Virus record (IMG/VR): IMGVR_UViG_3300036845_000721
Coordinates: 62,001-126,000 of that record
Length of the DNA: 64,000 bases
From: a virus
Direction: 5' to 3' (one strand)
In this document: one piece after another, positions 493 to 20,803 of the stretch
How the letters are laid out: each line of letters begins with the position of its first letter
Numbering within the stretch: position 1 is the first letter of the stretch
Made by a program: the position numbers and the translations under genes
Notes under the pieces: generated by a model
Told to the model about the DNA's origin: nothing
Seen by the model: the letters and a program-made list of their open reading frames with translations, nothing else
Database searches by the model: none

Positions 493-521
493 CGCGTTGT
501 CCTCCTGTGTTCTCGGGTGCC

Positions 522-539
522 GAGTGCAGAATTGCACTC
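522..539. repeat. P1 palindrome
   Basis: GAGTGCAGAATTGCACTC. It overlaps the stop codon of the gene ending at 538 and precedes the ribosome-binding site of the gene starting at 492. Confidence 0.8.
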
Positions 540-996
540 AGGCGGCCAGCAGGGCCGGCGTCTTGCGCTTGCGCCGGTACCGTTTCGGGATGATCGACAG
601 CCCGGTCCGAGTGCCGGGATTGCAGCGCGGGCACAGCTTCGGTCCGTAGTTCCGGTCCTTGAGCGCCTTCTCGTGCTCCTCGGTGGCGCTCGCCCAGATC
701 CGGACGATGGTGAACTCGGTGCCCGCCCCGGTGACCACGGCCAGCAGCCGCGCGCCGCGCCCGGCCCGGTGCTGCCTGATCCGGTCCGCGACCCCGGCCG
801 CCTGCTCGCCGGTCAGGTACCGGCAGGTGATCCGGGTCTGCATCGCGGCCCGGACCTCGGCCATGATCTCCGGGACGGCGAGCGCCGGGTCATCGGGGTA
901 GGCGAAGCCGAGGTAATGCCGGGCGTGCTGGTAGGGATTGTCCGCCCAGCACACCAGGTACAGCGCGCCGCGCCGCCGGTACCGGCGCCGGCTCAC
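538..996 (-). CDS. GIY-YIG/URI-like nuclease-fold protein
   Basis: The 152-aa protein has the outline of small GIY-YIG-like proteins of actinobacteria: YLV (13-15), HYLG (27-30), GRGARLL (79-85), a Glu followed by ALK (109-113) and a CPRC zinc-knuckle-like pair (122-125). The family normally cuts DNA, but many short members are unproven as nucleases. A basic tail (PKRYRRKRK) could bind nucleic acid. The GTG start at 996 overlaps the TGA of the upstream gene. Fold assignment is moderate; activity is inference. Confidence 0.55.
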   Translation of the reverse strand: MSRRRYRRRGALYLVCWADNPYQHARHYLGFAYPDDPALAVPEIMAEVRAAMQTRITCRYLTGEQAAGVADRIRQHRAGRGARLLAVVTGAGTEFTIVRIWASATEEHEKALKDRNYGPKLCPRCNPGTRTGLSIIPKRYRRKRKTPALLAA

Positions 997-1433
997 GCGT
1001 CCCGCTCCGGATCGTGCAGCCCCGGCCACATGCTGCCGCGCGGCGGCGCCTGCGGGCAGGCCAGCCGGTCGATCTCGTCCCGGCCGTCGTCACGCGGCGG
1101 CCGTGCCCAGGCATCGCTCTGATCGGCCCACAGCCCGTCAGCGCCCTGCTCGATGTCTGCCCGGCAGTACCGGCACCTGCGCACCAGGGCATCGGTCCCG
1201 GCGTGCATGCCCGGGGCCAGGTCGCGGATTACTCGGCCGTCGCCCGCGTTCCGCCAGTAGTAGCCGTTCTCGTCCGGGCTGCGCGTCTCGTCATCGGCCG
1301 AGATGCTGACACGGGTCACCTGCCGGCCCAGCCGGTCGGTCAGGCCGATGACGACGTTGACGATGCAGCCGGGCAGCTCGATGTGCAGCCGGTCCCCGCT
1401 GCGGTTGCGCTCGCCGAACACGATGGTTTTCAC
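993..1433 (-). CDS. Hypothetical protein with CxxC motif, 146 aa
   Basis: The GTG start at 1433 overlaps the preceding stop (GTGA). Its ribosome-binding site is a doubled SAS (AGGAGACAGGAGAC) lying inside the coding end of the upstream RyR gene. The N-terminal half looks beta-rich (VKTIVFGERN..., GCIVNVVIGL). The C-terminal half has CRYC (about 104-107) and a later single Cys, suggesting a small metal site. No family is recognised. Confidence 0.65.
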   Translation of the reverse strand: MKTIVFGERNRSGDRLHIELPGCIVNVVIGLTDRLGRQVTRVSISADDETRSPDENGYYWRNAGDGRVIRDLAPGMHAGTDALVRRCRYCRADIEQGADGLWADQSDAWARPPRDDGRDEIDRLACPQAPPRGSMWPGLHDPERDA

Positions 1434-1846
1434 GGTCTGTCTCCTGTCTCCTGATCTTTCCGGGCCGCCCGCCGCCGGGTGTAGTCCTGCACGATGCCCA
1501 GGAACACGCGGTCCTTGAACAGCTCGCCGGCGGGCAGCTGCGAGTAGTCGTCCACCAGGCACGGGTGCGTCTTCCTCACGGGGTCCTTGACGTCGCCCCG
1601 CTTCCAGCCGTCCTTGCGCTTGGCAGCCGCCCAGCGCTGCCACAGCTGTTCCGCCGTGACGCCCGCCAGGACCGCGAGCACGCTGTCCCGGGTGGACTCC
1701 GCCATCCACCCGGGCGCGTCTTCCAGGCGCGGTGTCGGAGCCTCCGGCGGGCTGCCGGTACCGAGCTGGAGCCACCAGATCGCGCTGTTGCACGCGGCGA
1801 CCAGTTCCTCTAGCTCAGCGTCGCTTAGTCCCGGCACGGCGGTCAC
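1430..1846 (-). CDS. RyR-domain protein
   Basis: Residues about 65-122 match the RyR repeat (Pfam RyR, first seen in ryanodine receptors): EQLW near 66, DGW at 79-81, then KTHPCLV at 92-98 followed by an LP and a charged helix. Single RyR domains are common in phages and bacteria, and comparative work suggests a ligand-binding role, possibly for nucleotide-derived molecules, but no function is proven in phages. The GTG start at 1846 overlaps the upstream stop. The 3' end encodes DQET, which is the SAS of the next gene. Confidence 0.75.
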   Translation of the reverse strand: MTAVPGLSDAELEELVAACNSAIWWLQLGTGSPPEAPTPRLEDAPGWMAESTRDSVLAVLAGVTAEQLWQRWAAAKRKDGWKRGDVKDPVRKTHPCLVDDYSQLPAGELFKDRVFLGIVQDYTRRRAARKDQETGDRP

Positions 1847-2253
1847 CCGGCTGGCTGGCAGGTGCAGTGCTTGTCCAGCCCGGAGCCCTGCAGCCCGCAG
1901 TCGCCGGCGTGCACGACCGGGGCCGCCTCGGTCACGGCCGGGTAGAAGCCCTGGCTGATGCCGTCCAGCAGCTTCGCCATCGCCTCCGAGAACGTGGACA
2001 GCGGCTTGCCCATCGCTATCCCCAGGTGGGTGTAGCGCGCGGTCAGTTCCGCGCTGGCCGTGTACGTCCCGGGCCGCAGGGCCGCGTCGTACGACGCGAT
2101 CCAGTAGATGGTCCATTTCTCGGACGTATTGTCCGACCGGATGAACCAGCGCGGGTCACGCTTCAGGACGTACGCCCGGCCCGCGAGCTCCCGGCTGTAG
2201 GGCAGGCTTGCCCGCCGGAAGTTCACCCCGTACGGGGGAATCTGGCCTGTCAT
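1843..2253 (-). CDS. Hypothetical protein, 136 aa
   Basis: The ATG at 2253 follows a perfect SAS (GATCAGGAGACAGCA), and P2 lies just upstream. A Tyr/Trp-rich N-terminal half (KRDPRWFIRSD, EKWTIYWIASYD) is followed by a helical middle and a Cys-containing tail (CGLQG..CTC). No family is recognised. It is first in a small cluster with the RyR and GIY-YIG-like genes. Confidence 0.7.
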   Translation of the reverse strand: MTGQIPPYGVNFRRASLPYSRELAGRAYVLKRDPRWFIRSDNTSEKWTIYWIASYDAALRPGTYTASAELTARYTHLGIAMGKPLSTFSEAMAKLLDGISQGFYPAVTEAAPVVHAGDCGLQGSGLDKHCTCQPAG

Positions 2254-2277
2254 TGCTGTCTCCTGATCTTGTAGTTG

Positions 2278-2293
2278 TTCCGGTTGACCGGAA
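2278..2293. repeat. P2 palindrome
   Basis: TTCCGGTTGACCGGAA, arms of six or more bases, between the stop of the gene at 2296 and the SAS of the gene starting at 2253. Confidence 0.75.
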
Positions 2294-2295
2294 AT

Positions 2296-2796: not shown

Positions 2797-3863
2797 GAGG
2801 TCTCCTCGCGGTGCTCCCGCACGGACTCGCGCAGGCTCTCCGGGATCTGCCCCAGCGGCACGCCCGCGTACGCGAGCCAGGCCGGGATCACGGGGTCGGC
2901 GGTTCCGGTGCCGTCGCCGCCTTCCTCGCCCTCGTGATAGCCCGAGATCAGGAACTCCGGGTCGCTGCCCTGGCGGAGGAGCGCGTCACGCATCTCAGCC
3001 CGGGTCAGTTCCCTGTTGGACACGACGTGCCGGACCTCGCCGGAGGCACCGTCGTTGACGTTGATGGCAGCCGCCTCGTCCGGGCTCATCGGCCGGTCCG
3101 ACAGGACTTCGACCTTGAAGACGTTCTGGTAGTAGCGCTCCATTCGGCTCTCCTCGCTGTTGTTGTTGTACGGGTGGCCCAGCATCGCCAGCAGCCGGGC
3201 CAGGTGACCGGCGCAGTCGTGGCCGGCCTCGATCTCGGCGTCGTTGCTGTCACCGCTGGCGGCGTCGTCCAGCGTGGCCAGCGCCTCGTGCATGGCCTCG
3301 ATGTCGGCGGCGGGCAGGTCCAGGTCCAGGATCGGCTCGGTGAAGGTCTGGACGTCCCCGGCCGGCACACTGGCGTCCTCCGGGTCAGCGTCCACGAACG
3401 AGGCCTTACCGCGCGGCGCGACGCAGGTCAGCCTGTAGACCAGGCCGGGCGGGTCGTCCGCGCTCTCCTCCACGGTGTTGTCGCGGACGTTGAACTCCAT
3501 CAGCCCCTCGGCTGCGCGCCGGGCGGCGGCGTAGTCCGGTGCGCCGATGCGGAAGGTGGCGACGGCGACGATGTCGAACGTGTACTCCGTGAGCGCGGTG
3601 TGCTCGGTCACCCAGACGGCGACGGCGGCCTTCGCCCCGCTCTCGCCGTCTGCCCCGCCTTCCGCCAGCACCGCGTCATCGCCCTCGTCTACGTCGTTCC
3701 ACCGGTTGTAGACCGTCCAGCCCCATGGCTGGTGGCCGTCCCGGCCGTCTGGTGCGACTGACGCCCAGGACGCGCCGCCGGGGCTGCCGATGGCGGTCAG
3801 GTCGGTTTCCTGGTCGTGGTTGGCTTCGTCCGCGCTGGCGGACAGGGTCCAGGTCAGGTTCAT
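2793..3863 (-). CDS. Hypothetical protein, 356 aa, with possible nested second start
   Basis: The ATG at 3863 overlaps the upstream stop (ATGA). The N-terminal 240 residues are acidic and look like a beta-domain (ALTEYTFDIVAVATFRIG). At 3143 an in-frame ATG is preceded by GAGGAG, so a separate 116-aa product (MERYYQNVFKVEVL...) could be made from the same frame, or two ancestral genes may have fused. The joint (PYNNNSEES) is linker-like. No family is recognised. Confidence 0.6.
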   Translation of the reverse strand: MNLTWTLSASADEANHDQETDLTAIGSPGGASWASVAPDGRDGHQPWGWTVYNRWNDVDEGDDAVLAEGGADGESGAKAAVAVWVTEHTALTEYTFDIVAVATFRIGAPDYAAARRAAEGLMEFNVRDNTVEESADDPPGLVYRLTCVAPRGKASFVDADPEDASVPAGDVQTFTEPILDLDLPAADIEAMHEALATLDDAASGDSNDAEIEAGHDCAGHLARLLAMLGHPYNNNSEESRMERYYQNVFKVEVLSDRPMSPDEAAAINVNDGASGEVRHVVSNRELTRAEMRDALLRQGSDPEFLISGYHEGEEGGDGTGTADPVIPAWLAYAGVPLGQIPESLRESVREHREETS

Positions 3864-4276
3864 TTCTGGTCTCCGGCCCACTTGAGCAGACGGCTCGCCA
3901 TCCGCTTGTCTTCGGCCGGGGCGTACGTCCAGGCCGTAACCTGCCCGGCGATCTGCCGTGCGATGACGGGCATCAGGCCGGCGCGGACGGCCAGGTCGCC
4001 CAGCGCGAGCCGCTGGTTCTCGGCGGCGTCCGGCTCGTAGAAGTAGTGGCCGGCGGTGTAGCCCAGCTGGCCGTCTGTGCTGCCGTCCAGCCGGAACGCC
4101 ATCCAGGTCACCCACTGGCGGCCGTCGTCCTGCTGGGCTGCCACGTACCAGCTGTGCAGCAGGCCCGGGGTGGCGGGCGATCCGGGCAGCACCGCCCGGA
4201 TGGTGTACCCCTGGTTGCTGGTCACGTCCGGTCGCGGCGGCGCGGTCTTCTCGGGCCTGATATCGGTGTCGTTCAT
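3860..4276 (-). CDS. Hypothetical protein, 138 aa
   Basis: The ATG at 4276 has CAGGAGACAGAACCG upstream, a SAS variant in which the GATCAG element is repeated in tandem. It contains a Trp/Tyr-rich middle (HSWYVAAQQDDGRQWVTW). No motif is recognised. It begins a coupled set reading into the 356-aa gene, with P2 at 4321 immediately upstream. Confidence 0.65.
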   Translation of the reverse strand: MNDTDIRPEKTAPPRPDVTSNQGYTIRAVLPGSPATPGLLHSWYVAAQQDDGRQWVTWMAFRLDGSTDGQLGYTAGHYFYEPDAAENQRLALGDLAVRAGLMPVIARQIAGQVTAWTYAPAEDKRMASRLLKWAGDQK

Positions 4277-4320: not shown

Positions 4321-4338
4321 TTTCCGGTCAGCCGGAAA
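4321..4338. repeat. P2 palindrome
   Basis: TTTCCGGTCAGCCGGAAA, identical to the copy at 7526, in the gap between genes ending at 4340 and starting at 4276. Confidence 0.8.
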
Positions 4339-4748: not shown

Positions 4749-5048
4749 TTATTGCACGTCGTGACGGGGGGACATCCGCGTCCGGTGCGTGCCGTGGTCG
4801 ATGTCCGTGAGGTGGGTCCGCTGCTTGCCGTTCTTGTGCTTCCACGGGATGGCGTCCGGGCTGGCCAGGATTTCCGCGAGCGTGTAACGCCGGGTCACGT
4901 AGCCGAAGTTGTTCAGCGTCACCGCCCCGGTGATCACCCACTGGCCGCTCGGCGTGTCGTAGGGCGGGGGCACGTCGTGCCGCTGCACCTGGCCGTTGTC
5001 GTGCAGCGTCCACCGTGAGCCGTCCTGGTTGATGATGGTTCTGGGCAT
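4749..5048 (-). CDS. Hypothetical protein, 99 aa
   Basis: The ATG at 5048 has ACAGGAGGCAGCAA upstream. The beta-rich N-terminus reads MPRTIINQDGSRWTLHDNG, and a basic His-rich tail follows (KHKNGKQRTHLTDIDHG). No family is recognised. It lies 16 nt downstream of the 320-aa gene, probably in the same transcript. Confidence 0.65.
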   Translation of the reverse strand: MPRTIINQDGSRWTLHDNGQVQRHDVPPPYDTPSGQWVITGAVTLNNFGYVTRRYTLAEILASPDAIPWKHKNGKQRTHLTDIDHGTHRTRMSPRHDVQ

Positions 5049-6049: not shown

Positions 6050-6376
6050 TCAGCGGCCCGTGCGGCGGCGCTGCCTGCGCAGCGCCCACGAGACGGTAAG
6101 GACGATCGCGCCGGGGATCAGCAGCCCGGCCGGGAAGGGCCAGAGCAGCAGCAGTACCAGCCCGAGACCCAGGCTGATCTCGGTGTAGGCCAGCACCAGG
6201 CCGGTCACGGCGAGCGGGCTGGTGCGCCGGCCCGCATCCCGGGCGGCGTAGTTGGACAGGTGCCCGAACAGCAGCCCGAACGGGAAGACGAACAGGCCGC
6301 CGAGCAGCGCGCACACGGCCAGCGCGTCATTGCGCGCCTCGGCCGGCTCTGGGCGGACGGGGGAGATCTGGTTCAT
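6050..6376 (-). CDS. DUF4190-like small membrane protein
   Basis: In 108 aa there are two hydrophobic segments (about 20-40 and 56-95). The sequence AVCALLGGLFVFPFG...LSNYAARDA...PLAVTGLVLAYTEI matches the pattern of DUF4190 proteins common in actinobacteria. A basic tail (RRQRRRTGR) suggests a cytoplasmic C-terminus. GGAGACACCC lies upstream of the ATG at 6376, followed by a full SAS and P1. Confidence 0.6.
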   Translation of the reverse strand: MNQISPVRPEPAEARNDALAVCALLGGLFVFPFGLLFGHLSNYAARDAGRRTSPLAVTGLVLAYTEISLGLGLVLLLLWPFPAGLLIPGAIVLTVSWALRRQRRRTGR

Positions 6377-6409
6377 GGTGAGGGTGTCTCCTGATCGTTG
6401 AAGGTTGCC

Positions 6410-6427
6410 GAGTGCAGGATTGCACTC
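6410..6427. repeat. P1 palindrome
   Basis: GAGTGCAGGATTGCACTC, one base before the TAG of the gene ending at 6429 and upstream of the SAS for the gene starting at 6376. Confidence 0.8.
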
Positions 6428-6428: not shown

Positions 6429-7505
6429 CTAGCTGGCGGGCCAGGTTCCGAACACGGCCGGGTCCGGCTCCGGGCCGTCCCCGTCCGGGCTCTCGTCCGG
6501 GACGCGGGCTAGCGGCTCGCCCAGCTCGTCCACTTCATGCAGTACCCGGCAGGACCGGGCCTTGGCCTTGTCCCCGATCACGACCAGGGTCCGGCGGTCC
6601 ACCGCGCAGGCCAGGAACCGGGTCGCGCCGCCGTCGTAGCTGCGGGCGCCGGCCACCGTCGGGCTGAAGTGCAGGCCGCCGCCGCAGTGCTCGCCCGGCT
6701 CGTAGTCCTCCGCCGTGACCGTGGCCCCGATCCGGTACTCGGTCCCGTGGTAGGACAGCAGGCCATCGCGCACCGCCTTGAACATGACCACTTCGCCGTG
6801 CGCGGTGGCCAGCCCGTTGTCCCTGATCCACCGGTATCGTTCGGTGGCCTGGTGCAGCCAGGCGCGGCGCTCGGCCTCGGCGGCGTCCCGGCGGGCTTGC
6901 CGGGCTGCCTCCCGCTGACGCCTGATCTCCTCGGGATCGTTCAGCCGGCGCAGGCCGGCCGGGTTGATGACCTCGCCGTCGCCGTCCACCCTGATCCCGT
7001 CGGCGAACATGACCGGCATCTGTTTGGACCCGTAGTCCCGCTGCCCGGTGCCGTTGCAGTGATAGCACTCGGCCCAGCGCGACAGCGTGATCTTCGGCGG
7101 GAAAATCTGCCGGTGCCAGTAGCCGTCGTTATCGTCCCATCCGTGCTCGTAATACTCGCGGTAGCCGGGCTGAACGACCCGGCCGGCGCCGCTGCATATG
7201 CGGCACGTGCGCAGCTTCGGCGGCGTCCGCGGGTCGTTCTTGGTCCACACCGCCCAGATGCCGCGCTCGCTGTAGACGCGGGCCGGGCCGTAGCCGTTGA
7301 TCCGCTGCTTGGTCGTGGTCGTTTCCCAGCCGCCCGTGCTCAGCGTGAACGTGCCGTCCGGGTGGATCGTCACGACGTCGGTGTAGTGGTAGCGGATCGC
7401 GTAGCCGTTGCCGCGCGGGTACAGGTAGGTGTTATTGCCCAGCCGCCGCCGGCCGCTGCGGGAGCGGCGCATCAGCGCCTCGGCCTCGCTGAACGTGATT
7501 GTCAT
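6429..7505 (-). CDS. Hypothetical zinc-finger protein, 358 aa
   Basis: The N-terminal part (25-75) is a beta-rich module (NTYLYPRGNGYAIRYHYTD...) seen in other phage proteins. The middle has two DnaJ-type cysteine pairs, CRICSGAG (101-108) and CYHCNGTG (147-154), likely binding zinc. A charged helical linker follows. The C-terminal domain (HGEVVMFKAVRDGLLSY...GGGLHFSPT) resembles an uncharacterised domain found at the end of many phage proteins. SAS and P2 lie upstream of the ATG at 7505. Confidence 0.6.
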   Translation of the reverse strand: MTITFSEAEALMRRSRSGRRRLGNNTYLYPRGNGYAIRYHYTDVVTIHPDGTFTLSTGGWETTTTKQRINGYGPARVYSERGIWAVWTKNDPRTPPKLRTCRICSGAGRVVQPGYREYYEHGWDDNDGYWHRQIFPPKITLSRWAECYHCNGTGQRDYGSKQMPVMFADGIRVDGDGEVINPAGLRRLNDPEEIRRQREAARQARRDAAEAERRAWLHQATERYRWIRDNGLATAHGEVVMFKAVRDGLLSYHGTEYRIGATVTAEDYEPGEHCGGGLHFSPTVAGARSYDGGATRFLACAVDRRTLVVIGDKAKARSCRVLHEVDELGEPLARVPDESPDGDGPEPDPAVFGTWPAS

Positions 7506-7525: not shown

Positions 7526-7543
7526 TTTCCGGTCAGCCGGAAA
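7526..7543. repeat. P2 palindrome
   Basis: TTTCCGGTCAGCCGGAAA, two bases before the stop codon of the gene ending at 7545. Confidence 0.8.
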
Positions 7544-9709: not shown

Positions 9710-10098
9710 GATGCGTCCCTCCGGTCCGCGTGGCAGCCGGTCTGGCCGCAGCCCGCGCAGTAGCCGTCCTCGCCGATCTCGGTCAGGTCGTCGGTGTCCA
9801 CGACGTGCTCGCGGTCGTCGCCGACCATCACCGCGCGGACGTAGCCGGAGCGCGGGACCAGCTCCGGCTCGCTGTAGAGGTAGCAGTCCGGGTCGTGGCA
9901 CTCCGGGTCGTTCTCGTCGCAGATGTCGTAGACGTGCGCCGGGTTGCCGCAGGCCAGCTCCCACGACTCCTGGGTCCACTCCATGTCCCAGCCGTGCAGC
10001 CAGAACGCCACGCCGCGCATCCCGGCCACGGTGTACCGCGCCTCGAAGTCGATGCCGTTCTCGGTCCCGGTCACAGCCGGGCCGCTGTACCTGGTCAT
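9706..10098 (-). CDS. Hypothetical Cys-rich protein, 130 aa
   Basis: The ATG at 10098 overlaps the upstream stop. It has paired cysteines (CDENDPECHDPDC and CAGCGQTGC), consistent with one or two zinc sites, after a beta-rich N-terminal half. Acidic overall. No family is recognised. Confidence 0.65.
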   Translation of the reverse strand: MTRYSGPAVTGTENGIDFEARYTVAGMRGVAFWLHGWDMEWTQESWELACGNPAHVYDICDENDPECHDPDCYLYSEPELVPRSGYVRAVMVGDDREHVVDTDDLTEIGEDGYCAGCGQTGCHADRRDAS

Positions 10099-10793: not shown

Positions 10794-10809
10794 TTCCGGT
10801 CAGCCGGAA
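10794..10809. repeat. P2 palindrome
   Basis: TTCCGGTCAGCCGGAA in the gap between genes ending at 10813 and starting at 10757. A CATACTGACCGA box, repeated near 11570, lies between it and the SAS. Confidence 0.8.
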
Positions 10810-11808: not shown

Positions 11809-12321
11809 TCAGCCGCCGGAGGTCACTGTGTGCGTGTAGGTCCGGGTGCCGGCCTTCGACACGGCCCATTTGCGGACGTCCTGCCACCAGCGCGGGTAGC
11901 TGCGCTCGTCCCGGTAGACGTTCTCGGTGTAGTGCGCGCCGGTCTTGCTGCGGCTGGTGATGCGCTCCCACTTCTGGTAGTCGTGGCCGCAGGCGTACTT
12001 GTGCACCCAGGTCTGCCGGACCGTGCCGGCTGACGACACCGAGTAGCTGTAGCTGTTCGTCGTCGTGCACGCGGTCGTGCGCGCGGCGGTCAGCACGGCC
12101 GCTGTAACGTGCGACGGGGCCGGCTGCGAGTGCGCGGGCGGCCCCGACGGCTGCCCGGACAGCAGCGCCATCGTCAGCATGCCGGCCGCTGCGGCGACCG
12201 CCAGCACGGCCAGCGCGAGCAGGACGGCGCGGCGCGGGAACGGTGCTGGCCTGGCGCGGCGGCCGGTGTTGCGGAGCGCGATCGCGTACGAGGGCGATCC
12301 GGTGTGACGGTTTGCGGACAT
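11809..12321 (-). CDS. Membrane-anchored or secreted hypothetical protein
   Basis: In 170 aa there is a basic N-terminus, then a strong hydrophobic segment (about 32-54, AVLLALAVLAVAAAAGMLTM), a Pro/Ser-rich linker and an extracellular-looking Tyr/Thr/Trp-rich domain with two Cys (TTACTTTN, KYACGHDY). It could be a type II membrane protein or an exported protein. SAS and P2 precede the ATG at 12321. Confidence 0.65.
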   Translation of the reverse strand: MSANRHTGSPSYAIALRNTGRRARPAPFPRRAVLLALAVLAVAAAAGMLTMALLSGQPSGPPAHSQPAPSHVTAAVLTAARTTACTTTNSYSYSVSSAGTVRQTWVHKYACGHDYQKWERITSRSKTGAHYTENVYRDERSYPRWWQDVRKWAVSKAGTRTYTHTVTSGG

Positions 12322-12350: not shown

Positions 12351-12366
12351 TTCCGGTCGGTCGGAA
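12351..12366. repeat. P2 palindrome (imperfect centre)
   Basis: TTCCGGTCGGTCGGAA; the outer five bases pair perfectly. It lies between the gene ending at 12376 and the SAS of the gene starting at 12321. Confidence 0.65.
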
Positions 12367-13150: not shown

Positions 13151-13531
13151 CTAGACCTCCGCCCCGGTCAGCGCGGCCAGCACGTTGCGGCGGCGCAGGA
13201 TCTCCGGGTCGGTCCCGGCCGGCAGCTCGTCCGTGAGGCCGGCGGTCCGGTAGGCCTTGATCGCCGCCTCCGCCAGCTCCGCGTCCGGTCCGGTCATCGC
13301 CCCGAAGTAGAGCCGGCGGTGCGACTCGTCCGGGATGTAGGTGCCGTCGCCGGGCTCCCCCGCCCACAGCTGGACGATGTCGTTGTAGCCGTGGTAGTCG
13401 CCGGCGGCCATGGACAGGTGCTCGTACATCGCGGCCACGCCCTGCCGGAACTCGGCCAGCTTCGGATCGGAGGCGGCCAGGTACCGGTTCGCCGCCGCGC
13501 GGATCTCGCTGACTCGCATGGTTTTTCTCAT
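13151..13531 (-). CDS. Hypothetical protein, 126 aa
   Basis: The ATG at 13531 was chosen because its distance to the SAS (GATCAGGAG, 9 nt) matches other genes. An ATG at 13537 is too close. Begins MRKTMRVSEIRAAANRY, helical, with a Tyr/Gly-rich middle and the C-terminus ALTGAEV shared with the downstream gene. No function is recognised. Confidence 0.6.
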   Translation of the reverse strand: MRKTMRVSEIRAAANRYLAASDPKLAEFRQGVAAMYEHLSMAAGDYHGYNDIVQLWAGEPGDGTYIPDESHRRLYFGAMTGPDAELAEAAIKAYRTAGLTDELPAGTDPEILRRRNVLAALTGAEV

Positions 13532-13558
13532 GATCATTTTCTCCTGATCTTCGGTGCG

Positions 13559-13576
13559 GAGTGCAGGATTGCACTC
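13559..13576. repeat. P1 palindrome
   Basis: GAGTGCAGGATTGCACTC, upstream of the SAS of the gene starting at 13531 and next to the structured element at 13586. Confidence 0.8.
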
Positions 13577-13732: not shown

Positions 13733-14449
13733 TTACTCGGTCGTCAGCCGGTAGCCGTCCGGCTGGATGGCAGCGAGCCGCCGCCACTCGGCTTCGCCGT
13801 GGACCAGGAAAGCGTCGGTCAGCTCTCCGTCGGTGTCGCGGACGTAAGCCATGGCCGGGTAAGTAGTCGGCACATCGCTCTCGTTGCTGTCGTCGGTGTC
13901 CGGGCGGTCGCAGCTCCAGAAACCCAGCTCCCCGCCGGCGTCCCACGACGATTCACAGCCGGCCAGCTCGCAGTCGGCGCAGACCAGGTCGGTGCCGTCC
14001 GCGCTGATCACCGTCTCCCCGCAGCACGGGCAGTCGTAGTAGCCCGGCTCGCGGAATGGCACCCGGCGGAACACGATCGCCCAGCCGGCCGCTTCCTCGG
14101 AGTCGTCCAGCGTCTCCACCGTGACCGCCGCGTACAGGCCGGGCCGGCGGACGATGTCCTCGGCGAGATGCCCGCCGATGTACTCCGACGCGTGCATGAT
14201 CGCCGGCGCGAAGTTGCCCTGCTGCCCGCTGTAGCCGTCGGTGAACGTTCCCCAGCCCGCGGCCTCGATGCCCGCGACCCACGCGTCATAGTCGGCCTGG
14301 AGGATCTGCCCGTCCGCGTCGGTGCCGATCACCGACTCCGGCGCGTGCACATCCGCCGGCCCGTCGCTCACGCGGCCTCTGGCGTCCACTGAGATCACGT
14401 GATCGAAATCCATCTCGGCGCTGAGCCAGTCAGCGTGACCGATTCCCAT
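13733..14449 (-). CDS. Hypothetical zinc-ribbon protein, 238 aa
   Basis: The ATG at 14449 has AAGGGAAAAACGACC upstream. The N-terminal half is mixed alpha/beta (MGIGHADWLSAEMDFDHVIS) and the middle has CPCCGE and CADCELAGC, a likely zinc ribbon (residues about 150-180). It is acidic. Domains of this kind occur in phage proteins of unknown role. Confidence 0.6.
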   Translation of the reverse strand: MGIGHADWLSAEMDFDHVISVDARGRVSDGPADVHAPESVIGTDADGQILQADYDAWVAGIEAAGWGTFTDGYSGQQGNFAPAIMHASEYIGGHLAEDIVRRPGLYAAVTVETLDDSEEAAGWAIVFRRVPFREPGYYDCPCCGETVISADGTDLVCADCELAGCESSWDAGGELGFWSCDRPDTDDSNESDVPTTYPAMAYVRDTDGELTDAFLVHGEAEWRRLAAIQPDGYRLTTE

Positions 14450-14471: not shown

Positions 14472-14487
14472 TTCCGGTTAACCGGAA
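14472..14487. repeat. P2 palindrome
   Basis: TTCCGGTTAACCGGAA, a perfect 16-bp palindrome, upstream of the gene starting at 14449 and just after the stop of the gene at 14491. Confidence 0.8.
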
Positions 14488-14490: not shown

Positions 14491-14859
14491 TCAGGCCAGG
14501 ATGCTGACGCAGTCCAGGCAGGTGATGGCGCGGCGGTGCAGCGCGGCGCGCCCGCCCTCGTCGCTGGATACGCCCGTCGCCCGGCCGCAGACCGGCGGCT
14601 CGCGCCACAGCGGCCGGTCGTCGTGCAGGGTGTCCAGGTCGATGGCGTGCACGGTGCCGTCGTCGTGCTCCACGCCGACGTAGCCGCGCGGCGTGAGCAT
14701 GACGGCTGCGAGCCGGCTCATCCGCTCGCCCTCGGCGTGCAGGTACGCGGCCAGCTCCAGGATGCCGGCGTGGTCGGCCGGCGTGATCCGGGGATCGGCG
14801 GCGCACGCGGCGCACGTCTCTACGGGGTCGGTGTGGAATCCGGGTTCGGGCCTGCTCAT
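14491..14859 (-). CDS. Hypothetical Cys-containing protein, 122 aa
   Basis: The ATG at 14859 overlaps the upstream stop (ATGA). It has CAACAADP near 16 and TCLDCVS near 113, which may join in a metal site, with a helical middle. No family is recognised. Confidence 0.6.
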   Translation of the reverse strand: MSRPEPGFHTDPVETCAACAADPRITPADHAGILELAAYLHAEGERMSRLAAVMLTPRGYVGVEHDDGTVHAIDLDTLHDDRPLWREPPVCGRATGVSSDEGGRAALHRRAITCLDCVSILA

Positions 14860-15413
14860 GACACGCCTGCCGCGTACAGGCCGGCGCCGTCGGCTTCCAT
14901 GCGCGCGATGTCAGCCTCGTCCGTGCTGGCCGGCTCCGGCTGGAACCAGAACACGACCGCGTCCCGCGACCCGCCGAGGTTGCTTCCGCAGACGTCGCAC
15001 GCGGACCAGGTGAACGTCAGCTGCTCGCACTCGCAGTCGCCGCCACGGTCGGACTCGGTCTCCAGCTCGTGGCCGCGCGCCACGGTCAGCCGGGCGCCGG
15101 CCGGGATCTCCCAGTGCGCCGCCTCCATCGCGTCGGCGTAGCTGCCCGCGAGCACTTCCACCGTGCCCCGGACCATCGACCCGCGCACGCGGTGCGGGAC
15201 CAGGTAGGTCACGGTCCAGTTGGACCGGCAGTCGTGGCCCTCGCGGAACATGCCCAGCGTGACCTCGCAGCCCTCGGTGTAGTGCGCGATCCGCGCCTGC
15301 CACTCGGTTATCTCGGCTGGCGTCCAGTCCGCCGGCGCGTCGCCGTTGGCCAGCAGGAACAGGCAGTCGGTGCAGCACCAGCCGCTGAACGTCTGGTCTC
15401 GGTTCATGGTCAT
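14856..15413 (-). CDS. Hypothetical Cys-rich protein, 185 aa
   Basis: The N-terminus has CCTDC (13-17). The C-terminal part (CECEQLTFTWSACDVCGSNLGG) matches a short Cys-rich module that I recall from many actinophage hypothetical proteins. The domain between them is beta-rich. A SAS and P1 precede the ATG at 15413. Zinc binding is likely; the role is unknown. Confidence 0.65.
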   Translation of the reverse strand: MTMNRDQTFSGWCCTDCLFLLANGDAPADWTPAEITEWQARIAHYTEGCEVTLGMFREGHDCRSNWTVTYLVPHRVRGSMVRGTVEVLAGSYADAMEAAHWEIPAGARLTVARGHELETESDRGGDCECEQLTFTWSACDVCGSNLGGSRDAVVFWFQPEPASTDEADIARMEADGAGLYAAGVS

Positions 15414-15450: not shown

Positions 15451-15468
15451 GAGTGCAGGATTGCACTC
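15451..15468. repeat. P1 palindrome
   Basis: GAGTGCAGGATTGCACTC; its last two bases overlap the TGA of the gene ending at 15467. Confidence 0.8.
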
Positions 15469-16076: not shown

Positions 16077-16211
16077 CTAGCCGCGCGGGTCGCGGTCTAG
16101 CTGGCTGATAATCTCGCGCTCGTCTCGCTCGGCACACTGCCGGCGGGAGATACCCGGATCGCACGTGCACGGCTGGTCCGCGCTGTCCGGCCGGTAGCTG
16201 GGGGTTTGCAT
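16077..16211 (-). CDS. Small hypothetical protein, 44 aa
   Basis: The ATG at 16211 has GGAGGATCGATC upstream, and that GGAG is the right arm of P2. Encodes MQTPSYRPDSADQPC..., with one CTC motif and an acidic/basic helical tail. The start signal is the main support. Confidence 0.5.
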   Translation of the reverse strand: MQTPSYRPDSADQPCTCDPGISRRQCAERDEREIISQLDRDPRG

Positions 16212-16220
16212 GATCGATCC

Positions 16221-16234
16221 TCCGATCGGTCGGA
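16221..16234. repeat. P2 variant overlapping a ribosome-binding site
   Basis: TCCGATCGGTCGGA. On the minus strand the right arm supplies the GGAG of the gene starting at 16211, so pairing or protein binding would mask translation signals. Confidence 0.65.
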
Positions 16235-16237
16235 ATG

Positions 16238-16483
16238 TCAGTGAACGTAGGCACCGCGATCGGTGCAGGTGAACGTGTCGCCGTCGGGCAGCGTCACCGA
16301 ATCGCCCGGCTGCAATGCCGCGTGCCAGGTGCCGGTGATCACGGTGCCGGTATAGACCGGCTGGCTCGCCTGGCAGGTGACCGCCGGCGCGTAGTGGTGC
16401 GTCAGCCGCAGCGCCGCCACTTCGGCCTGGACCAGCAGCGCGAACGCCAGCAGAATCCAGCCGGTTCGCTCCCGCCAGCCCAT
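16238..16483 (-). CDS. Small membrane-anchored hypothetical protein, 81 aa
   Basis: The ATG at 16483 overlaps the upstream stop (TGATG). A hydrophobic segment at about 8-26 (TGWILLAFALLVQAEVAAL) is followed by a beta-rich domain with two Cys (VTCQAS, FTCTDR) that could form a disulfide outside the membrane. No family is recognised. Confidence 0.6.
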   Translation of the reverse strand: MGWRERTGWILLAFALLVQAEVAALRLTHHYAPAVTCQASQPVYTGTVITGTWHAALQPGDSVTLPDGDTFTCTDRGAYVH

Positions 16484-16659
16484 CAGGCCGCTTCCTTGCG
16501 CCACGCCGCGCGCTCGGCCGCGGACGGGGAGTCCGGCCTGCCAGGCCGGTGTGGTGGCCTGGTCAGGTCGATCTTGGGCTGGTGATCGAACATCGCCTCG
16601 AACAGCGCTTGCGCGGCCAGCGCGCCGGCTGTCGGGGTGTCTTGCTCGCGGGTGGTCAT
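16483..16659 (-). CDS. Small hypothetical protein, 58 aa
   Basis: The ATG at 16659 follows a SAS (GATCAGGAGACACGATC). Helical N-terminus (QDTPTAGALAAQALFEAMFD) and a Pro/Arg-rich tail ending AAWRKEAA. It is coupled by TGATG to the membrane protein downstream. Confidence 0.55.
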   Translation of the reverse strand: MTTREQDTPTAGALAAQALFEAMFDHQPKIDLTRPPHRPGRPDSPSAAERAAWRKEAA

Positions 16660-16684: not shown

Positions 16685-16702
16685 GAGTGCAGGACTGCAC
16701 TC
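16685..16702. repeat. P1 palindrome
   Basis: GAGTGCAGGACTGCACTC, between the gene ending at 16706 and the SAS of the gene starting at 16659. Confidence 0.8.
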
Positions 16703-16705: not shown

Positions 16706-16942
16706 TTACGGGCAGGCCCGGTCCATGCCGGGCAGGTGCGACTGCCAGTGCCCGTGGATGTGGCGGACGTAGGTCTCGCACACCGTCATCTGGCGCGGCA
16801 GGCCGTGGATGAACGACTGCACCAGCGCCACGGTGCCGGCGCGGTCCAGCCCGATGCGGAACTGGTAGTAGCTGACCAGCGCGGCGCGGAGGTTCCGCTG
16901 GTGCGCGAACATGCACAGCAGGTGATTGATGAGATGGGCCAT
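16706..16942 (-). CDS. Hypothetical His-rich helical protein, 78 aa
   Basis: The ATG at 16942 is 8 nt from the GGAG embedded in P2. Another ATG at 16948 is too close to it. MAHLINHLLCMFAHQRN... then basic/aromatic helices and HIHGHWQSH. It may bind metal. No family is recognised. Confidence 0.55.
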   Translation of the reverse strand: MAHLINHLLCMFAHQRNLRAALVSYYQFRIGLDRAGTVALVQSFIHGLPRQMTVCETYVRHIHGHWQSHLPGMDRACP

Positions 16943-16944: not shown

Positions 16945-17115
16945 TCATTTCTCCGATCGGTCGGAAATCAGGTCCCGTATCCACGGGAACTGCCGGATGA
17001 ACTCGCGCCATTCGGGGGACTTATCCCGCCAGGCCGGCCAGCATGACGCGCAGATGTTGCCGCTGGCTGCCTCGTAGACGTGGCCGCATAGCCGGCACGC
17101 ACGCTTGGATTTCAC
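16945..17115 (-). CDS. Small zinc-ribbon protein, 56 aa
   Basis: The GTG start at 17115 is followed by KSKRACRLCGHVYEA and CASCW, a four-cysteine zinc ribbon spanning most of the protein. Its 3' end (SDRSEK) is encoded by P2. Proteins of this size often act as adaptors or nucleic-acid binders. Confidence 0.6.
   Translation of the reverse strand: MKSKRACRLCGHVYEAASGNICASCWPAWRDKSPEWREFIRQFPWIRDLISDRSEK
16952..16965. repeat. P2 variant inside a coding end and next to a ribosome-binding site
   Basis: TCCGATCGGTCGGA; lies in the 3' end of the gene at 16945 and supplies the GGAG of the gene starting at 16942. Confidence 0.65.
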
Positions 17116-17191: not shown

Positions 17192-17365
17192 TTACCAGGT
17201 AGGCCGGCTCTCGGCGCGCCGTACGGCCAGCTCTGCGCGGATCGCGCGGACGGCCGGCGGTGACGCGAGCCGCAAGTCCAGCCCGCGGAGTACGTCGGTG
17301 CGGACATCGTCCAGCCGGATCGCCGTCCACACGGGCCGCGATTCCTGGCGCATGGTTGCGTACAT
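17192..17365 (-). CDS. Small hypothetical protein, 57 aa
   Basis: The ATG at 17365 follows a perfect SAS (GATCAGGAGACAGCAACC), ending TAA at 17192. The protein is basic and helical (AIRLDDVRTDVLRGLDLRL...AIRAELAVRR). The 76 nt between it and the next gene show no convincing start. Confidence 0.55.
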   Translation of the reverse strand: MYATMRQESRPVWTAIRLDDVRTDVLRGLDLRLASPPAVRAIRAELAVRRAESRPTW

Positions 17366-17436: not shown

Positions 17437-17454
17437 GAGTGCAGAACTGCACTC
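17437..17454. repeat. P1 palindrome
   Basis: GAGTGCAGAACTGCACTC, about 55 bp upstream of the SAS of the gene starting at 17365. Confidence 0.8.
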
Positions 17455-17482: not shown

Positions 17483-18124
17483 TCAGCTGACGGCCGCCAG
17501 CTCGCCAAGGGCACCGTCGCGCGAGGCACGCTGGCGGCGCGGGCGCTTGACGGCCGCCTTGATCTGCGCGTCCATCTCGGCCCTGATCTTGGCGACCTTG
17601 GCCTCGGCCGCGGTCACCTCGCCCTGGAGGCGCAGCAGGTTGGCCTCGGCCTTGGCCAGCTGCGTCGGCAGGTCATCCTCGCCGGCGCCGTCCGCGTCGT
17701 CCGCGCCGTCGCCGTCGCCCTCGCCGTCGCCCTCGCCGGCCGGCTTGCGGGACTGCACGATCGCACGCGCGGCGGCCGTGGTCATCGCTTCCTGCACCAG
17801 CTCGAACCGGTCATCCTCACGGCCGAGGATCTGGTGCACCGTCCAGGATGCGACGCCGCGCTGGTCTGCCGGGTACTGCTCGGCGACCTTGCGGAAGTCG
17901 TACAGGGACTTGCCGGGGACGTCCAGGTCAGCGGCGAACCGCTCGATCGTGCTGGCACCGTAGGTCGTGGCGACCTTGAGCGCCAGGTCACCGAGGACCC
18001 AGTTGAACTTGTACTGCGACGCGATGGCGGCGCGGCCCTGCCGGACGGCGGTGTTGTACCGGGCCGGGCTGTCTTCCACGGCCACGACGGTCTTGACGGG
18101 GGTCTTACCGGACTTGCTTGCCAT
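17483..18124 (-). CDS. HTH plus coiled-coil DNA-binding-like protein
   Basis: In this 213-aa protein residues about 35-110 (WVLGDLALKVATTYG...IERFAADLDVPGKSLYDFRKVAEQYP) match a helix-turn-helix-like module I recognise from actinophage and plasmid proteins. A Glu/Asp/Gly-rich linker (GEGDGEGDGDGADD) follows, then a Leu/Ala/Glu coiled coil and a basic tail. The layout resembles KfrA- or ParB-associated DNA-binding proteins. It is a candidate binder of P1 or P2, which is inference. Confidence 0.55.
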   Translation of the reverse strand: MASKSGKTPVKTVVAVEDSPARYNTAVRQGRAAIASQYKFNWVLGDLALKVATTYGASTIERFAADLDVPGKSLYDFRKVAEQYPADQRGVASWTVHQILGREDDRFELVQEAMTTAAARAIVQSRKPAGEGDGEGDGDGADDADGAGEDDLPTQLAKAEANLLRLQGEVTAAEAKVAKIRAEMDAQIKAAVKRPRRQRASRDGALGELAAVS

Positions 18125-18161
18125 GATGTCTGTCTCCTGATCAGTTACCTGGCGGGTTGCC

Positions 18162-18179
18162 GAGTGCAGAACTGCACTC
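18162..18179. repeat. P1 palindrome
   Basis: GAGTGCAGAACTGCACTC, upstream of the SAS of the HTH gene starting at 18124; the same gap also has P2 at 18220. Confidence 0.8.
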
Positions 18180-18219
18180 GGCGGTGCCGTCGTCTCGCGG
18201 CACTCACGGGCCGGCAATG

Positions 18220-18235
18220 TTCCGGTCGATCGGAG
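18220..18235. repeat. P2 variant
   Basis: TTCCGGTCGATCGGAG; one outer base is mismatched. It is the only gap with both P1 and P2 and lies upstream of the HTH gene. Confidence 0.6.
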
Positions 18236-18264
18236 CATCGCCGGCCCGTCAGCGGGCGGGAACG

Positions 18265-18567
18265 TTACCGGCCGGCCGTCCAGTCGGTGTCGGTGTAGGC
18301 GCAGAAGTCGGACGGCACTGCGGCCCGGTCGGCTAGCCGTCGCAGGATGCGCGCGGCGTGGCGCGGCTCAGTCGCTGCGATGCGCGCGGCATAGGCACGC
18401 TGCGCGGTCTCGGTGTCCGGGCGCGGAGGGATGTGCAGCCGCGCGCAGTCCAGCGCGCCGGCGCCGCTGTGCGGCATGCCGTGGTCGGGGCTGTCGCAGC
18501 ACTGGCGGACGTAGGCGAACGGCCGCTCGGCCGGCTCAGCTTTGGGCTGGCGGTGCGTGTCACTCAT
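18265..18567 (-). CDS. Hypothetical protein, 100 aa
   Basis: The ATG at 18567 has a SAS variant (GATCGGGAGACATGATC) upstream. Contains QCCDSPDHGMPH and two other Cys, and a helical middle rich in Ala/Arg. No family is recognised. Confidence 0.6.
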   Translation of the reverse strand: MSDTHRQPKAEPAERPFAYVRQCCDSPDHGMPHSGAGALDCARLHIPPRPDTETAQRAYAARIAATEPRHAARILRRLADRAAVPSDFCAYTDTDWTAGR

Positions 18568-18592: not shown

Positions 18593-18610
18593 GAGTGCAG
18601 AACTGCACTC
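18593..18610. repeat. P1 palindrome
   Basis: GAGTGCAGAACTGCACTC, between the gene ending at 18614 and the SAS of the gene starting at 18567. Confidence 0.8.
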
Positions 18611-18613: not shown

Positions 18614-18772
18614 TCAGCTAGCGGTTAGGGTGTCTGCGGCGACGTCGAACAGCGTCCGGGTACCGGGCACGATAAGCGGACCGGTCGGTACGTCACCCGC
18701 GATCACCCGCGCGCCCGTGCGCTCATACAGGCAGCGTCCGCACATCTGCGTGCGCGTGCAGTTGCAGGTCAT
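18614..18772 (-). CDS. Small Cys-rich protein, 52 aa
   Basis: The ATG at 18772 overlaps the upstream stop (ATGA). MTCNCTRTQMCGRCLYE provides four Cys within 15 residues, a compact zinc-binding site, followed by a short beta-like tail. Confidence 0.55.
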   Translation of the reverse strand: MTCNCTRTQMCGRCLYERTGARVIAGDVPTGPLIVPGTRTLFDVAADTLTAS

Positions 18773-18972
18773 GACCGGCCACTCCGCTCGATGATCGCGG
18801 CCCATCCGGCCAGCGATCGGTCGCTGTCGCGGTCGGCCGCGATGCCGGCGGCGGGCAGGCTGGTCTCGCCTAGCACAGCACCGCATCGCGGGCAGGCGGA
18901 CAGTGCCAGGTCGGGGGACGTGAATCCGCATCCGTCGCAGATCACGATGGGTTTGCGGGTAGTGCGTGCCAT
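18769..18972 (-). CDS. Small zinc-ribbon protein, 67 aa
   Basis: The ATG at 18972 has GAGAGGCACGATC upstream. VICDGCGF (10-17) and ACPRCGAV (26-33) form a classic two-knuckle zinc ribbon, with a hydrophobic-acidic C-terminus. Translationally coupled to the 52-aa Cys-rich gene, so the two may act together. Confidence 0.6.
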   Translation of the reverse strand: MARTTRKPIVICDGCGFTSPDLALSACPRCGAVLGETSLPAAGIAADRDSDRSLAGWAAIIERSGRS

Positions 18973-18990
18973 GATCGTGCCTCTCAGTTG

Positions 18991-19008
18991 GAGTGCAGGA
19001 TTGCACTC
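18991..19008. repeat. P1 palindrome
   Basis: GAGTGCAGGATTGCACTC, three bases before the stop codon of the gene ending at 19012. Confidence 0.8.
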
Positions 19009-19011
19009 GGG

Positions 19012-19515
19012 TCAGTTGTCGCCTAGCCATACCGGCTGGCGGCGGACGATTGCGACCGCGCCAAGCCCGTGCAGGACCGAACGATCGGCCATGGCCGGCC
19101 GCCGCAATCCCTCGGATTCGCCGGCCAGCCGTTGCCGTACCTCCATGCCGGCCACAGCGCGAACGCCGGTCGCTACCCGCGCGATGCGCGGTGCGGACAC
19201 GTGCGTGAGCGATTCGCTGGCATACTCGGCCGATTCGGCGCGCCGGCGGACACCTCCGCCACCCATCCGCGCGGTGCCCATTGTGTTGCCGCGCGCCGTG
19301 CGGGTAACCGCGCGGCCGTCACGGTCAGTTTGGGTGACCGTGCGGCGCGGTGCGCCGGCTACCCGCCGGCCGGCCGTCGGATCGGTCCGCGCGTTGCTGC
19401 CCGTGCGGCCGGCCGTGCCGTACGTGCCCGACCGCAGTGCCGGCGGAGGTGACTTAGGCGACAGTGCAGCGCGCGACACGGTGCCTAGCTTGGCTTGCTT
19501 GTGTCGTGATCCCAT
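19012..19515 (-). CDS. Hypothetical basic low-complexity protein, 167 aa
   Basis: The ATG at 19515 is 9 nt from the GGAG of the P2 variant. Rich in Arg, Thr, Ala, Gly and Ser (ARTDPTAGRRVAGAPRRTV), strongly basic and probably unstructured. It may bind nucleic acid. Coding status is moderately secure because the flanking genes have the same strand and spacing. Confidence 0.5.
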   Translation of the reverse strand: MGSRHKQAKLGTVSRAALSPKSPPPALRSGTYGTAGRTGSNARTDPTAGRRVAGAPRRTVTQTDRDGRAVTRTARGNTMGTARMGGGGVRRRAESAEYASESLTHVSAPRIARVATGVRAVAGMEVRQRLAGESEGLRRPAMADRSVLHGLGAVAIVRRQPVWLGDN

Positions 19516-19525
19516 GGCGGGAATC

Positions 19526-19539
19526 TCCGATCGGTCGGA
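19526..19539. repeat. P2 variant overlapping a ribosome-binding site
   Basis: TCCGATCGGTCGGA, identical to 16221 and 16952; its right arm supplies GGAG for the gene starting at 19515. Confidence 0.65.
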
Positions 19540-19633
19540 ATGTCGGTGCCCCGTTAGGCACTCACTGACCAGCCCGCGCGGGGATGCTACGGGCTGGACA
19601 GTCAATGAACGGTGCGGGATCGGTGCGGGTAGC

Positions 19634-20200
19634 TCACGCGACCTTCAGGCCGGCCGCGTTGCGGCTGCGCAGGATCGATCCGATGTACGCGGAGATGTCT
19701 TCCAGCTGCCCGCTGGTCAGCGCGTCCAGCTCACGGTGCAGGACCGCGATGCGCGCGGCATCGGCCGGCTTGACGGTGGTCACGTTGTCCGTGCCGCCGG
19801 CAGGCTTGGCGGCAGGCTTGGCGGCCGGCGCGCGCTTGACGGTTTTGCCGGCCTTCTCGGCATCGGTCTTGACGGTCCGCACACTGGCCTTGACCACTTG
19901 CGCAACCTCGCCGTATTCCATGCCGGCTTCCCTGAACAGCTCCACCAGGAACGTACGCGCGGCGGTATCGGGCTTGAATCCGTCCGAGTGCAGTTCTGCA
20001 CTCACGTACTCTGACCAGGTCTCGTAACCCATGAGGTAGTGAACCTGCTGGGCGTACGCGGTAACGATCATCGCGCCGAGCGTTTCGATCGCGTTGCCGG
20101 CGGTCGTGATCTGCGCATTGATTGCCGCAGTCACGCGCGGACCGTATTCCTCATTGTTCGCGTAGCGGAAGTTGTGCGGGTAGGTCGTGGTCTCACTCAT
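19634..20200 (-). CDS. HTH-like regulatory protein, first gene of the leftward arm
   Basis: In 188 aa, the helical N-terminal half includes GYETWSEYVSAELHSDGF and then REAGMEYGEVAQVVKASVRTVKTD, a typical helix-turn-helix outline (about 92-118). A Lys/Ala/Pro linker (KRAPAAKPAAKPAGG) and a C-terminal helix pair follow. The ATG at 20200 was chosen for its GGGAG; an ATG at 20212 lacks one. The gene contains P1 (19986-20003) in its own coding sequence and another P1-like site 27 bp upstream, suggesting autoregulation. Confidence 0.6.
   Translation of the reverse strand: MSETTTYPHNFRYANNEEYGPRVTAAINAQITTAGNAIETLGAMIVTAYAQQVHYLMGYETWSEYVSAELHSDGFKPDTAARTFLVELFREAGMEYGEVAQVVKASVRTVKTDAEKAGKTVKRAPAAKPAAKPAGGTDNVTTVKPADAARIAVLHRELDALTSGQLEDISAYIGSILRSRNAAGLKVA
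19986..20003. repeat. P1 palindrome inside a coding sequence
   Basis: GAGTGCAGTTCTGCACTC, encoding part of SAELHSD in the HTH-like gene. It is the only full P1 wholly within a gene. Confidence 0.75.
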
Positions 20201-20226
20201 GATGACTCCCATGGTTTGGGGGGTTC

Positions 20227-20246
20227 CAAGTGCAGATTTGCACTTG
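20227..20246. promoter_or_regulatory. P1-like operator upstream of leftward arm
   Basis: CAAGTGCAGATTTGCACTTG, a 20-bp palindrome (A/T outermost change from P1), 27 bp upstream of the first leftward gene. The position fits an operator for the leftward promoter. Confidence 0.55.
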
Positions 20247-20803
20247 GCGCGCGGGCCAGCCGGAGTCTGATTCCGTTGCCTACGTCCATAGGTCGCGCGG
20301 TTACGTTAGGCAATCCGCCATACCGCCGCTAGGCGATACCGATTGCAGCCCGTAGCCTGTATGCGACTGTCGCGTATCCATTGGCTGGCCCAATTGCTTA
20401 GGGGACACGCGCGGCGGTTTGCTAATCCGTCCGCATGCCGTGACCTCATATCGCACTACGCGCGATAGCGGAGGATTTCACCAGGTAACCGATAGGGGAC
20501 GACCGGGTCGTGGCAAAGAGGCATGCGCGCATTCCGCACCCTTGCAATGCTCGCCAGTCACGCTAACGGCTTGGTGTCGTCACTCTGGAGTTTTCAAGTT
20601 GCGGTGCCGGCTGGTGGCCGGCTTGCTCTCACCCTCCGGGCGGAGGGCTTGCCCGTAGCCTAATGGCAATTTGGCAATATGGCAACCTGGTAAGCCGAAA
20701 ACAGGCCTTATTTCATGATCAACATGCCCTCTGACCTGGCATTATAACAGGTTGATAACGGTCTTGAGACTAGGGGCAGAATGTCCGATATGTCCGGTTT
20801 AAC

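Follow-up and report, generated by a model that had tools for sequence, protein, structure and literature searches.

Analysis of a 64,000-nucleotide window (bases 62001-126000) of the 131,444-bp IMG/VR virus record IMGVR_UViG_3300036845_000721 revealed two families of short palindromes, P1 and P2, which lie mostly in the gaps of a leftward array of non-structural genes. All positions are numbered on the window, including those in the rest of the contig. The record has a G+C content of 71%. The relatives of its terminase, portal and capsid are actinophages or elements in Streptomyces, Actinomadura, Kribbella and a Micromonosporaceae metagenome-assembled genome, so the host of this large, uncultured virus is probably a soil actinobacterium. 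A near DNA search of cultured phages gave no match, and no cultured relative was close by terminase or capsid either. Genes were called with a codon-model script, and two extra open reading frames (ORFs) were added by hand for later counts. In the left arm, all genes point leftward from a non-coding control region (about 20.2 to 22.9 kb), and the motifs are thus read on the minus strand. Head and packaging genes were identified at 43 to 49 kb.

P1 and P2 in the gene gaps of the left arm

P1 (GAGTGCA-N4-TGCACTC) is present in 11 exact copies and one symmetric variant, all between 522 and 20821. P2 occurs in ten copies in the interval 500-20821, and both counts agree with the initial annotation. 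The P1 count was reached by no shuffle of the window, and no further copy was found in the rest of the contig. The palindromes are single, with arms of 7 bp in P1 and 6 bp in P2 and a spacer fixed at 4 bp (7-4-7 and 6-4-6). The P1 arms are invariant in 11 of the 12 copies and the spacers differ. Alignment of the P2 sites of this genome and its relatives on the coding strand gave a 24-bp dyad, GATYYTCCGG-N4-CCGGARRATC, with symmetric flanks. Relative to the coding strand, the P1 spacer is asymmetric and the inner pair of P2 mildly so.

Intergenic DNA makes up 11% of the left arm and holds 11 of the 12 P1 copies (P = 3e-10) and 9 of the 10 P2 copies (P = 2e-8). The earlier statement that nearly all palindromes lie in gene gaps was thus borne out for 20 of the 22 sites, the exceptions being P1 at 19986 and P2 at 16951. 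Random placement inside genes, named beforehand as an outcome that would speak against a control system, was not seen. All 12 left-arm gaps of 39 to 70 nt contain a palindrome, compared with none of the 22 gaps of 25 nt or less, and a palindrome is very rare in any gap below 39 nt. The palindromes usually begin -2 to 9 nt after a stop codon, and the distance to the next start codon has a median of 27 nt and usually spans 20 to 45 nt. In long gaps, it is mostly the distance to the start codon that is preserved, rather than that to the stop codon (for example, at 13559, 18162 and -14442). A start signal, GATCAGGAGA, is enriched at genes with an upstream palindrome (12 of 26, versus 13 of 199 contig-wide; P = 8e-7). 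Exact copies of the start signal GATCAGGAGAC were found on the minus strand at 6386-6396 and at 1446, 2258, 7510, 9131, 11774, 12329, 15422, 16666, 17373 and 18132, and on the plus strand at 31596.

The leftmost P1 copy (522-539), 29 nt ahead of the start of gene 208-492, runs into the stop codon of gene 538-996. The next copies are positioned 33 nt ahead of the start codon of gene 6050-6376 (6410-6427) and 21 nt from the start of gene 13151-13537, there at 156 nt from the upstream stop (13559-13576). Further copies precede gene 14856-15413 (15451-15468), gene 16483-16659 (16685-16702) and gene 17192-17365 (17437-17454, downstream of gene 17483). The copy at 18162-18179 is located 37 nt before gene 17483 and 85 nt from a stop, and those at 18593-18610 and 18991-19008 precede gene 18265-18567 and, by 18 nt, ORF 18769-18972. 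One copy (19986-20003) lies within the coding sequence of gene 19634. The variant AAGTGCAGATTTGCACTT (20228-20245), in which both outer bases are changed symmetrically, stands directly upstream of the same gene. The rightmost copy (20804-20821) is part of the non-coding control region; a possible extended -10 element of leftward orientation, TGTTATAAT, lies about 60 bp downstream of it, near 20745.

The P2 copies are distributed in a similar way. They were found 24 nt before the start of gene 1843-2253 (2278-2293), 45 nt before that of gene 3860-4276 (4322-4337) and 21 nt before that of gene 6429-7505 (7527-7542), as well as before gene 10095-10757 (10794-10809), gene 11809-12321 (12351-12366) and gene 13733-14449 (14472-14487). 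Four copies are variants. The first (16220-16235; CTCCG on the plus strand) is located 8 nt before gene 16077-16211. The second (16951-16966) reaches into the 3' end of gene 16945-17115, immediately ahead of gene 16706-16942, the third (18220-18235) stands about 95 nt before gene 17483, and the fourth (19525-19540) precedes ORF 19012-19518 by 6 nt. The initial annotation described the two palindromes as marks of the left arm. This description fits P1; exact P2 copies also lie beyond the arm, more thinly, at -42945, -39432, -14442, -1344 and 61659. The last of these (61659-61674, TTCCGATCGATCGGAA) is placed between rightward genes, and the closest relative has the same core in its corresponding gap (G001, position 4874). 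The proposed alternation of P1 and P2 along the arm was not significant (P = 0.125) and was not retained.

P2 arrays and the gene 17483 family in relatives

Large relatives were found by terminase and capsid searches and then fetched. The numbers of intergenic P2 cores, found versus expected, were 15 versus 0.13 in the genome under study (G000), 6 versus 0.3 in G004, 11 versus 0.17 in G006, 27 versus 0.17 in G011 and 5 versus 0.03 in G017. None was found in G008, G012 or G014. Homologs of gene 17483, with identities of 31 to 47%, are present in exactly the four P2-array relatives G004, G006, G011 and G017. A fifth, the 210-kb relative G019, had been fetched by its capsid gene alone; it encodes a 17483 homolog (E = 6e-49) and has nearby P2 sites, as predicted for a genome that had been found through neither feature. 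A homolog is thus present in every one of the five relatives that have P2 arrays and in which the head of the array is complete. G020 has neither, and the large relatives G008, G014 and G020 all lack both the array and the homolog. With G008 and G012 counted as one lineage and G020 and G021 likewise, array and homolog occur together in six of six genomes versus none of three (Fisher's exact test, P = 0.012).

The sites also cluster around the gene. All 11 P2 cores of G006 lie within 30 kb of the 17483 homolog (23% expected), as do 19 of the 27 cores of G011 (17% expected). In G006 and G017, a P2 core is located inside the homolog's own coding sequence, as P1 is inside gene 19634. The full layout of stop codon, palindrome, A/C-rich linker, AGGAG signal and start codon is present in block TGACTTTCCGGGCGCCCGGAACATTCACACAGGAACAGG of G004 and block TAGAACCTCCGGCCAGCCGGACGATTCACAGATCAGGAGACACCGATG of G011. 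P2 presence is partly common to orthologous genes of G000 and G011 (P = 0.006). The P2 sites at 10794 and 14472 are examples with a P2 also upstream of the G011 ortholog, and the G011 homolog of gene 17483 has a P2 at a distance (-104) similar to that of the site at 18220.

The scan of both motifs across the full genome and relatives, which had been suggested earlier, gave a divided result. P2 recurs in at least five diverged relatives and P1 is confined to this genome. In 18 relatives, with up to 2 mismatches allowed, P1 gave only isolated non-symmetric matches. Across all IMG/VR contigs, 75 contigs carry a single exact P1 copy each, which is about the chance level, and none has an array. A search of IMG/VR with the extended P2 operator matched 8 contigs, one of which is G011; in the other 7, P2 cores do not exceed background and a 17483 homolog is absent.

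Gene 17483 (17483-18124, minus strand; 17483-18238 in the ORF list, from an earlier ATG) is the candidate for the P2-binding regulator. Its 213-amino-acid product is predicted to form a helix-turn-helix helical domain followed by a long C-terminal coiled coil (predicted local distance difference test score [pLDDT], 66), an architecture such as would be expected of a dimer on a dyad. The best Foldseek neighbors of the model are the DNA-binding domains of ParB, SopB, KorB and Noc. Neither a supporting Pfam match nor a PDB sequence match was obtained, and recognizable ParB or KorB domains are thus lacking. As a single query in IMG/VR, the protein gave no match; an alignment search returned only the relatives already known, with none in 84,980 bacterial and archaeal genomes.

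Gene 19634 (19634-20212, minus strand), the first gene of the leftward operon, encodes a 192-amino-acid candidate for the P1-binding protein and has P1 both upstream (20228) and inside (19986). Analysis of its sequence gave only a very weak match to Sigma70 region 4 (a helix-turn-helix domain). No sequence-supported homolog was found in phage records, IMG/VR or the fetched relatives. Since P1 and gene 19634 are both unique to this genome, the gene is the best guess for the P1 binder. Gene 22944, which had been named as a third possible binder, has no family match and nothing in its support, and it was rejected as a regulator. Another possible repressor is encoded at 34262-35065; this XRE-type protein has HTH_31 and DUF5753 domains, typical of actinobacterial regulators, and no link to P1 or P2.

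Proposed operators and competing explanations

We interpret P1 and P2 as dispersed DNA operators for phage-encoded regulators in a large actinophage, set along its leftward array of non-structural genes, and we give this interpretation a probability of roughly 60%. A DNA-binding protein encoded by the phage would hold each pair of half-sites as a dimer. P2 would most likely be bound by the product of gene 17483 (family A1) and P1 by a second regulator, most likely the product of gene 19634. Since a site stands some 27 nt ahead of the next start signal in nearly every gap of the array, binding would switch many genes together. We infer repression rather than activation, most likely through a block of transcription initiation or elongation at each gap, in the manner of stoperators.

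Several observations weigh against this interpretation. The P2 palindrome belongs to an RNA structure in G011 and G019, and a promoter scan revealed no promoter-like (sigma-70-like) sequence at the gaps. The fold matches of the gene 17483 model to ParB, SopB, KorB and Noc are not significant (E > 1 at the stated pLDDT), and the structure model of gene 19634 is poor (pLDDT 43). The link between gene 19634 and P1 is drawn from position and from their shared uniqueness to this genome. Genome pairs other than G000 and G011 have few or no sites in common at orthologous genes. The genomes with both P2 and the regulator may be one clade, in which case the co-occurrence could reflect descent. Finally, the fragment G015 has a few P2 copies and no 17483 homolog on the fragment.

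The strongest of the alternatives, which we nevertheless regard as unlikely, places the palindromes at the RNA level, where mRNA hairpins after each stop codon would set mRNA ends, stability or processing. The usual position of the sites close behind a stop codon agrees with this idea, as does the orientation of the P1 spacer and the inner P2 pair relative to transcription, an asymmetry that a pure dimer site does not need. Further evidence for an RNA role comes from relatives. Type II hammerhead-like elements occur in the same type of gap in G011 (about 15; L158 1675-18431 and L159 3929-4014), G019 (about 13; L295 4761-18796 and L296 2023-2104) and G004 (one; L137 12468-12528). In many of the G011 and G019 copies, the P2 palindrome is part of stem III. 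The consensus folds into the hammerhead topology, and stems I and III both show compensatory changes; the loop of stem I (TGGCC in G011 and TGACC in G019) matches the 3' tail (GGCCA and GGTCA). A loop-tail pseudoknot has been described for type II hammerheads, and arrangements of up to three were tested in the study of prophage hammerheads (PMC3088659). In many G011 copies, position 4 of the core is changed (CCGAUGA) and an extra U is present, so that catalysis is uncertain. The elements in the gaps of G011, G019 and G004 match the type II hammerheads known from prophages (PMC3088659) in GAAA, NUH and the CUGAUGA core with three stems, whereas none was detected in the genome under study, either with Rfam on the window or by a search for these features. 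None was found in the P2-negative relatives tested.

Hairpins of another kind were observed in the P2-negative relative G008, where many gaps at about 139 to 157 kb (L156 and L157) contain, after the stop codon, long hairpins with 12- to 17-bp arms of varying sequence. These are often followed by a short CCGGTCAGGG-type element and gave no Rfam match; they possibly represent a separate, RNA-type punctuation. Their presence in gene gaps lends some credit to RNA-level punctuation in this group of viruses.

The stand-alone sites of the genome under study nevertheless favor DNA recognition. Where a pair of the dyad is broken, the coding strand shows A·C mismatches no less often than G·U wobbles, which disfavors an mRNA hairpin, and most flanking pairs show no per-copy covariation. 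The arms are fixed in sequence and the spacers vary, whereas the lower stem III of the G011 elements varies with compensation while the P2 tip sequence is kept. In long gaps the sites follow the start codon rather than the stop codon, and P1 copies are also found in the control region and inside a gene. No T-run follows the palindromes, A/C-rich linkers being present instead, as against the T-run of an intrinsic terminator, and the terminator scan listed no palindrome as terminator-like on the coding strand. The initial annotation had left the choice between operators for two regulators and RNA-level punctuation. The operator half of this proposal gained from the presence of P2 with a candidate regulator in relatives and from the restriction of both P1 and gene 19634 to this genome; the RNA half is disfavored for the stand-alone sites. 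A further reading, which we hold as a tentative idea, is that P2 is one sequence with two readings, a DNA operator in the gaps and, in G011 and G019, a part of stem III of self-cleaving hammerheads in these same gaps. One regulator could then control transcription and mRNA cleavage gene by gene, and the genome under study would be operator-only, with a newly acquired P1 and its own regulator. Such an overlap of P2 and hammerheads in relatives would join DNA-level and RNA-level gene punctuation in one phage group.

A further explanation, slightly less probable than mRNA hairpins, is that each palindrome lies in a phage-specific promoter that starts a transcript at each gene and needs an activator or an altered polymerase. 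The start-proximal placement fits, the extended start-associated sequences (ESAS) of cluster K mycobacteriophages contain putative SigA-like promoters (PMC11373665), and the P1 copy at 20804 is positioned upstream of a possible extended -10 element. That element is absent from the listing of the promoter scan, however, the same scan gave no sigma-70-like site at the gaps, and the 20 to 45 nt between palindrome and start codon contain no shared -10.

The idea that the palindromes and start signals are duplicated modules, gene-cassette linkers that aid gene shuffling by recombination without any regulator, is improbable. The copies at -42945 and -39432 have about 30 nt in common, including the start signal, some copies are alike beyond the motif, and the spacers of the array copies look related. 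Invariant arms, differing spacers and exact dyad symmetry point instead to recognition, and linkers would leave the co-occurrence with one predicted DNA-binding gene family unexplained.

ParB, SopB, KorB and Noc-type proteins recognize short palindromes at many places on a replicon, and KorB acts in addition as a global repressor. The Foldseek neighbors of gene 17483 would thus allow partition or DNA-organizing sites (parS, KorB or Noc-like) with secondary effects on transcription, a reading we consider very improbable, since all fold matches have E values above 1, a protein of 213 amino acids leaves no room for the N-terminal CTPase domain of ParB, a non-exhaustive search gave no ParA partner, and the strict link to gene starts is needless for partition.

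Comparison with known phage systems and neighboring features

Among known systems, the operators proposed here resemble most closely in layout the start-associated sequences (SAS) and ESAS of cluster K. SAS are 13-bp sequences with the consensus GGGATAGGAGCCC at start codons, and ESAS are paired 17-bp inverted repeats, imperfect and separated by a spacer that varies, with putative SigA promoters; in Pixie and TM4, the ESAS repeat consists of a 6-bp half-site, a 4-bp spacer and the inverse half-site, and the repeat sequence varies by subcluster (PMC3203893, PMC11373665, PMC12699233). Both systems combine a start-proximal, AGGAG-containing signal with inverted repeats that precede some of the non-structural genes. 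The repeats lie just upstream of the start signal and only at non-structural genes here as well (P1 solely in 522-20821, at a distance from the head and packaging genes), and the 6-4-6 geometry of Pixie and TM4 is close to the 7-4-7 and 6-4-6 found here. In contrast, the start signal GATCAGGAGAC shares only the AGGAG core with GGGATAGGAGCCC and does not match the 13-bp consensus, and a single short palindrome takes the place of the 17-bp repeat pair. The promoter scan detected no -35 and -10 hexamers within the element. Two unrelated palindrome classes occur in one operon, and the phage lineage is different. The likeness to SAS/ESAS stated in the initial annotation, with other sequences, thus stands for layout and geometry and not for sequence or descent.

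In L5 and other cluster A phages, each stoperator is a 13-bp site, asymmetric and oriented, to which a monomer binds. More than 20 repressor sites are dispersed there in short intergenic spaces and at promoters, much as here (PMC9283540), whereas the sites of this genome are dyads in which the inner pair is mildly asymmetric. A non-exhaustive search revealed no L5-type immunity repressor. SPBRE of phage SPbeta, a 15-bp motif at promoter regions, is likewise a repeated intergenic element, first recognized computationally and subsequently identified as the site of the phage master repressor; it is bound by MrpR, which has a tyrosine-recombinase fold, in contrast to the helix-turn-helix and coiled coil predicted for the candidate here (PMC10516654). 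As in phage operator arrays in general, repeated gap sites co-occur with a phage gene for a DNA-binding protein, the DNA binding of gene 17483 being a structure-based prediction. The two classes of sites, interleaved along the arm, form a genuine and ordered system. The best reading is that the system corresponds to dispersed phage operators in its workings and to SAS/ESAS in its layout, and that its sequences match none of the named systems. Since 2011, it has not been clear what the cluster K layout does. The present lineage, apparently an independent one, shares that layout, and its relatives point to a specific candidate regulator family that accompanies one of the palindromes, so that the idea can be tested directly.

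Other features were noted around the control region. Within it, at 20900-21050, about eight tandem copies of the 17-bp unit GGTCGGAGGTGGCCCAC are present; they are iteron-like and may mark a replication origin. A near-identical pair of blocks ending in GTGTCATAATGGTTATGTGGCAACGAGG (21770-21815 and 22880-22930) lies upstream of rightward ORFs and resembles a duplicated promoter with a CATAA-TGG-TTATG dyad. Close to the control region, an FtsK/SpoIIIE-like protein (PHROG 31069) is encoded at 27220-29619, which recalls actinobacterial conjugative elements. At the right end of the contig (contig 127-131.4 kb; L083 7785-11444), 15 tRNA matches are clustered on the minus strand.

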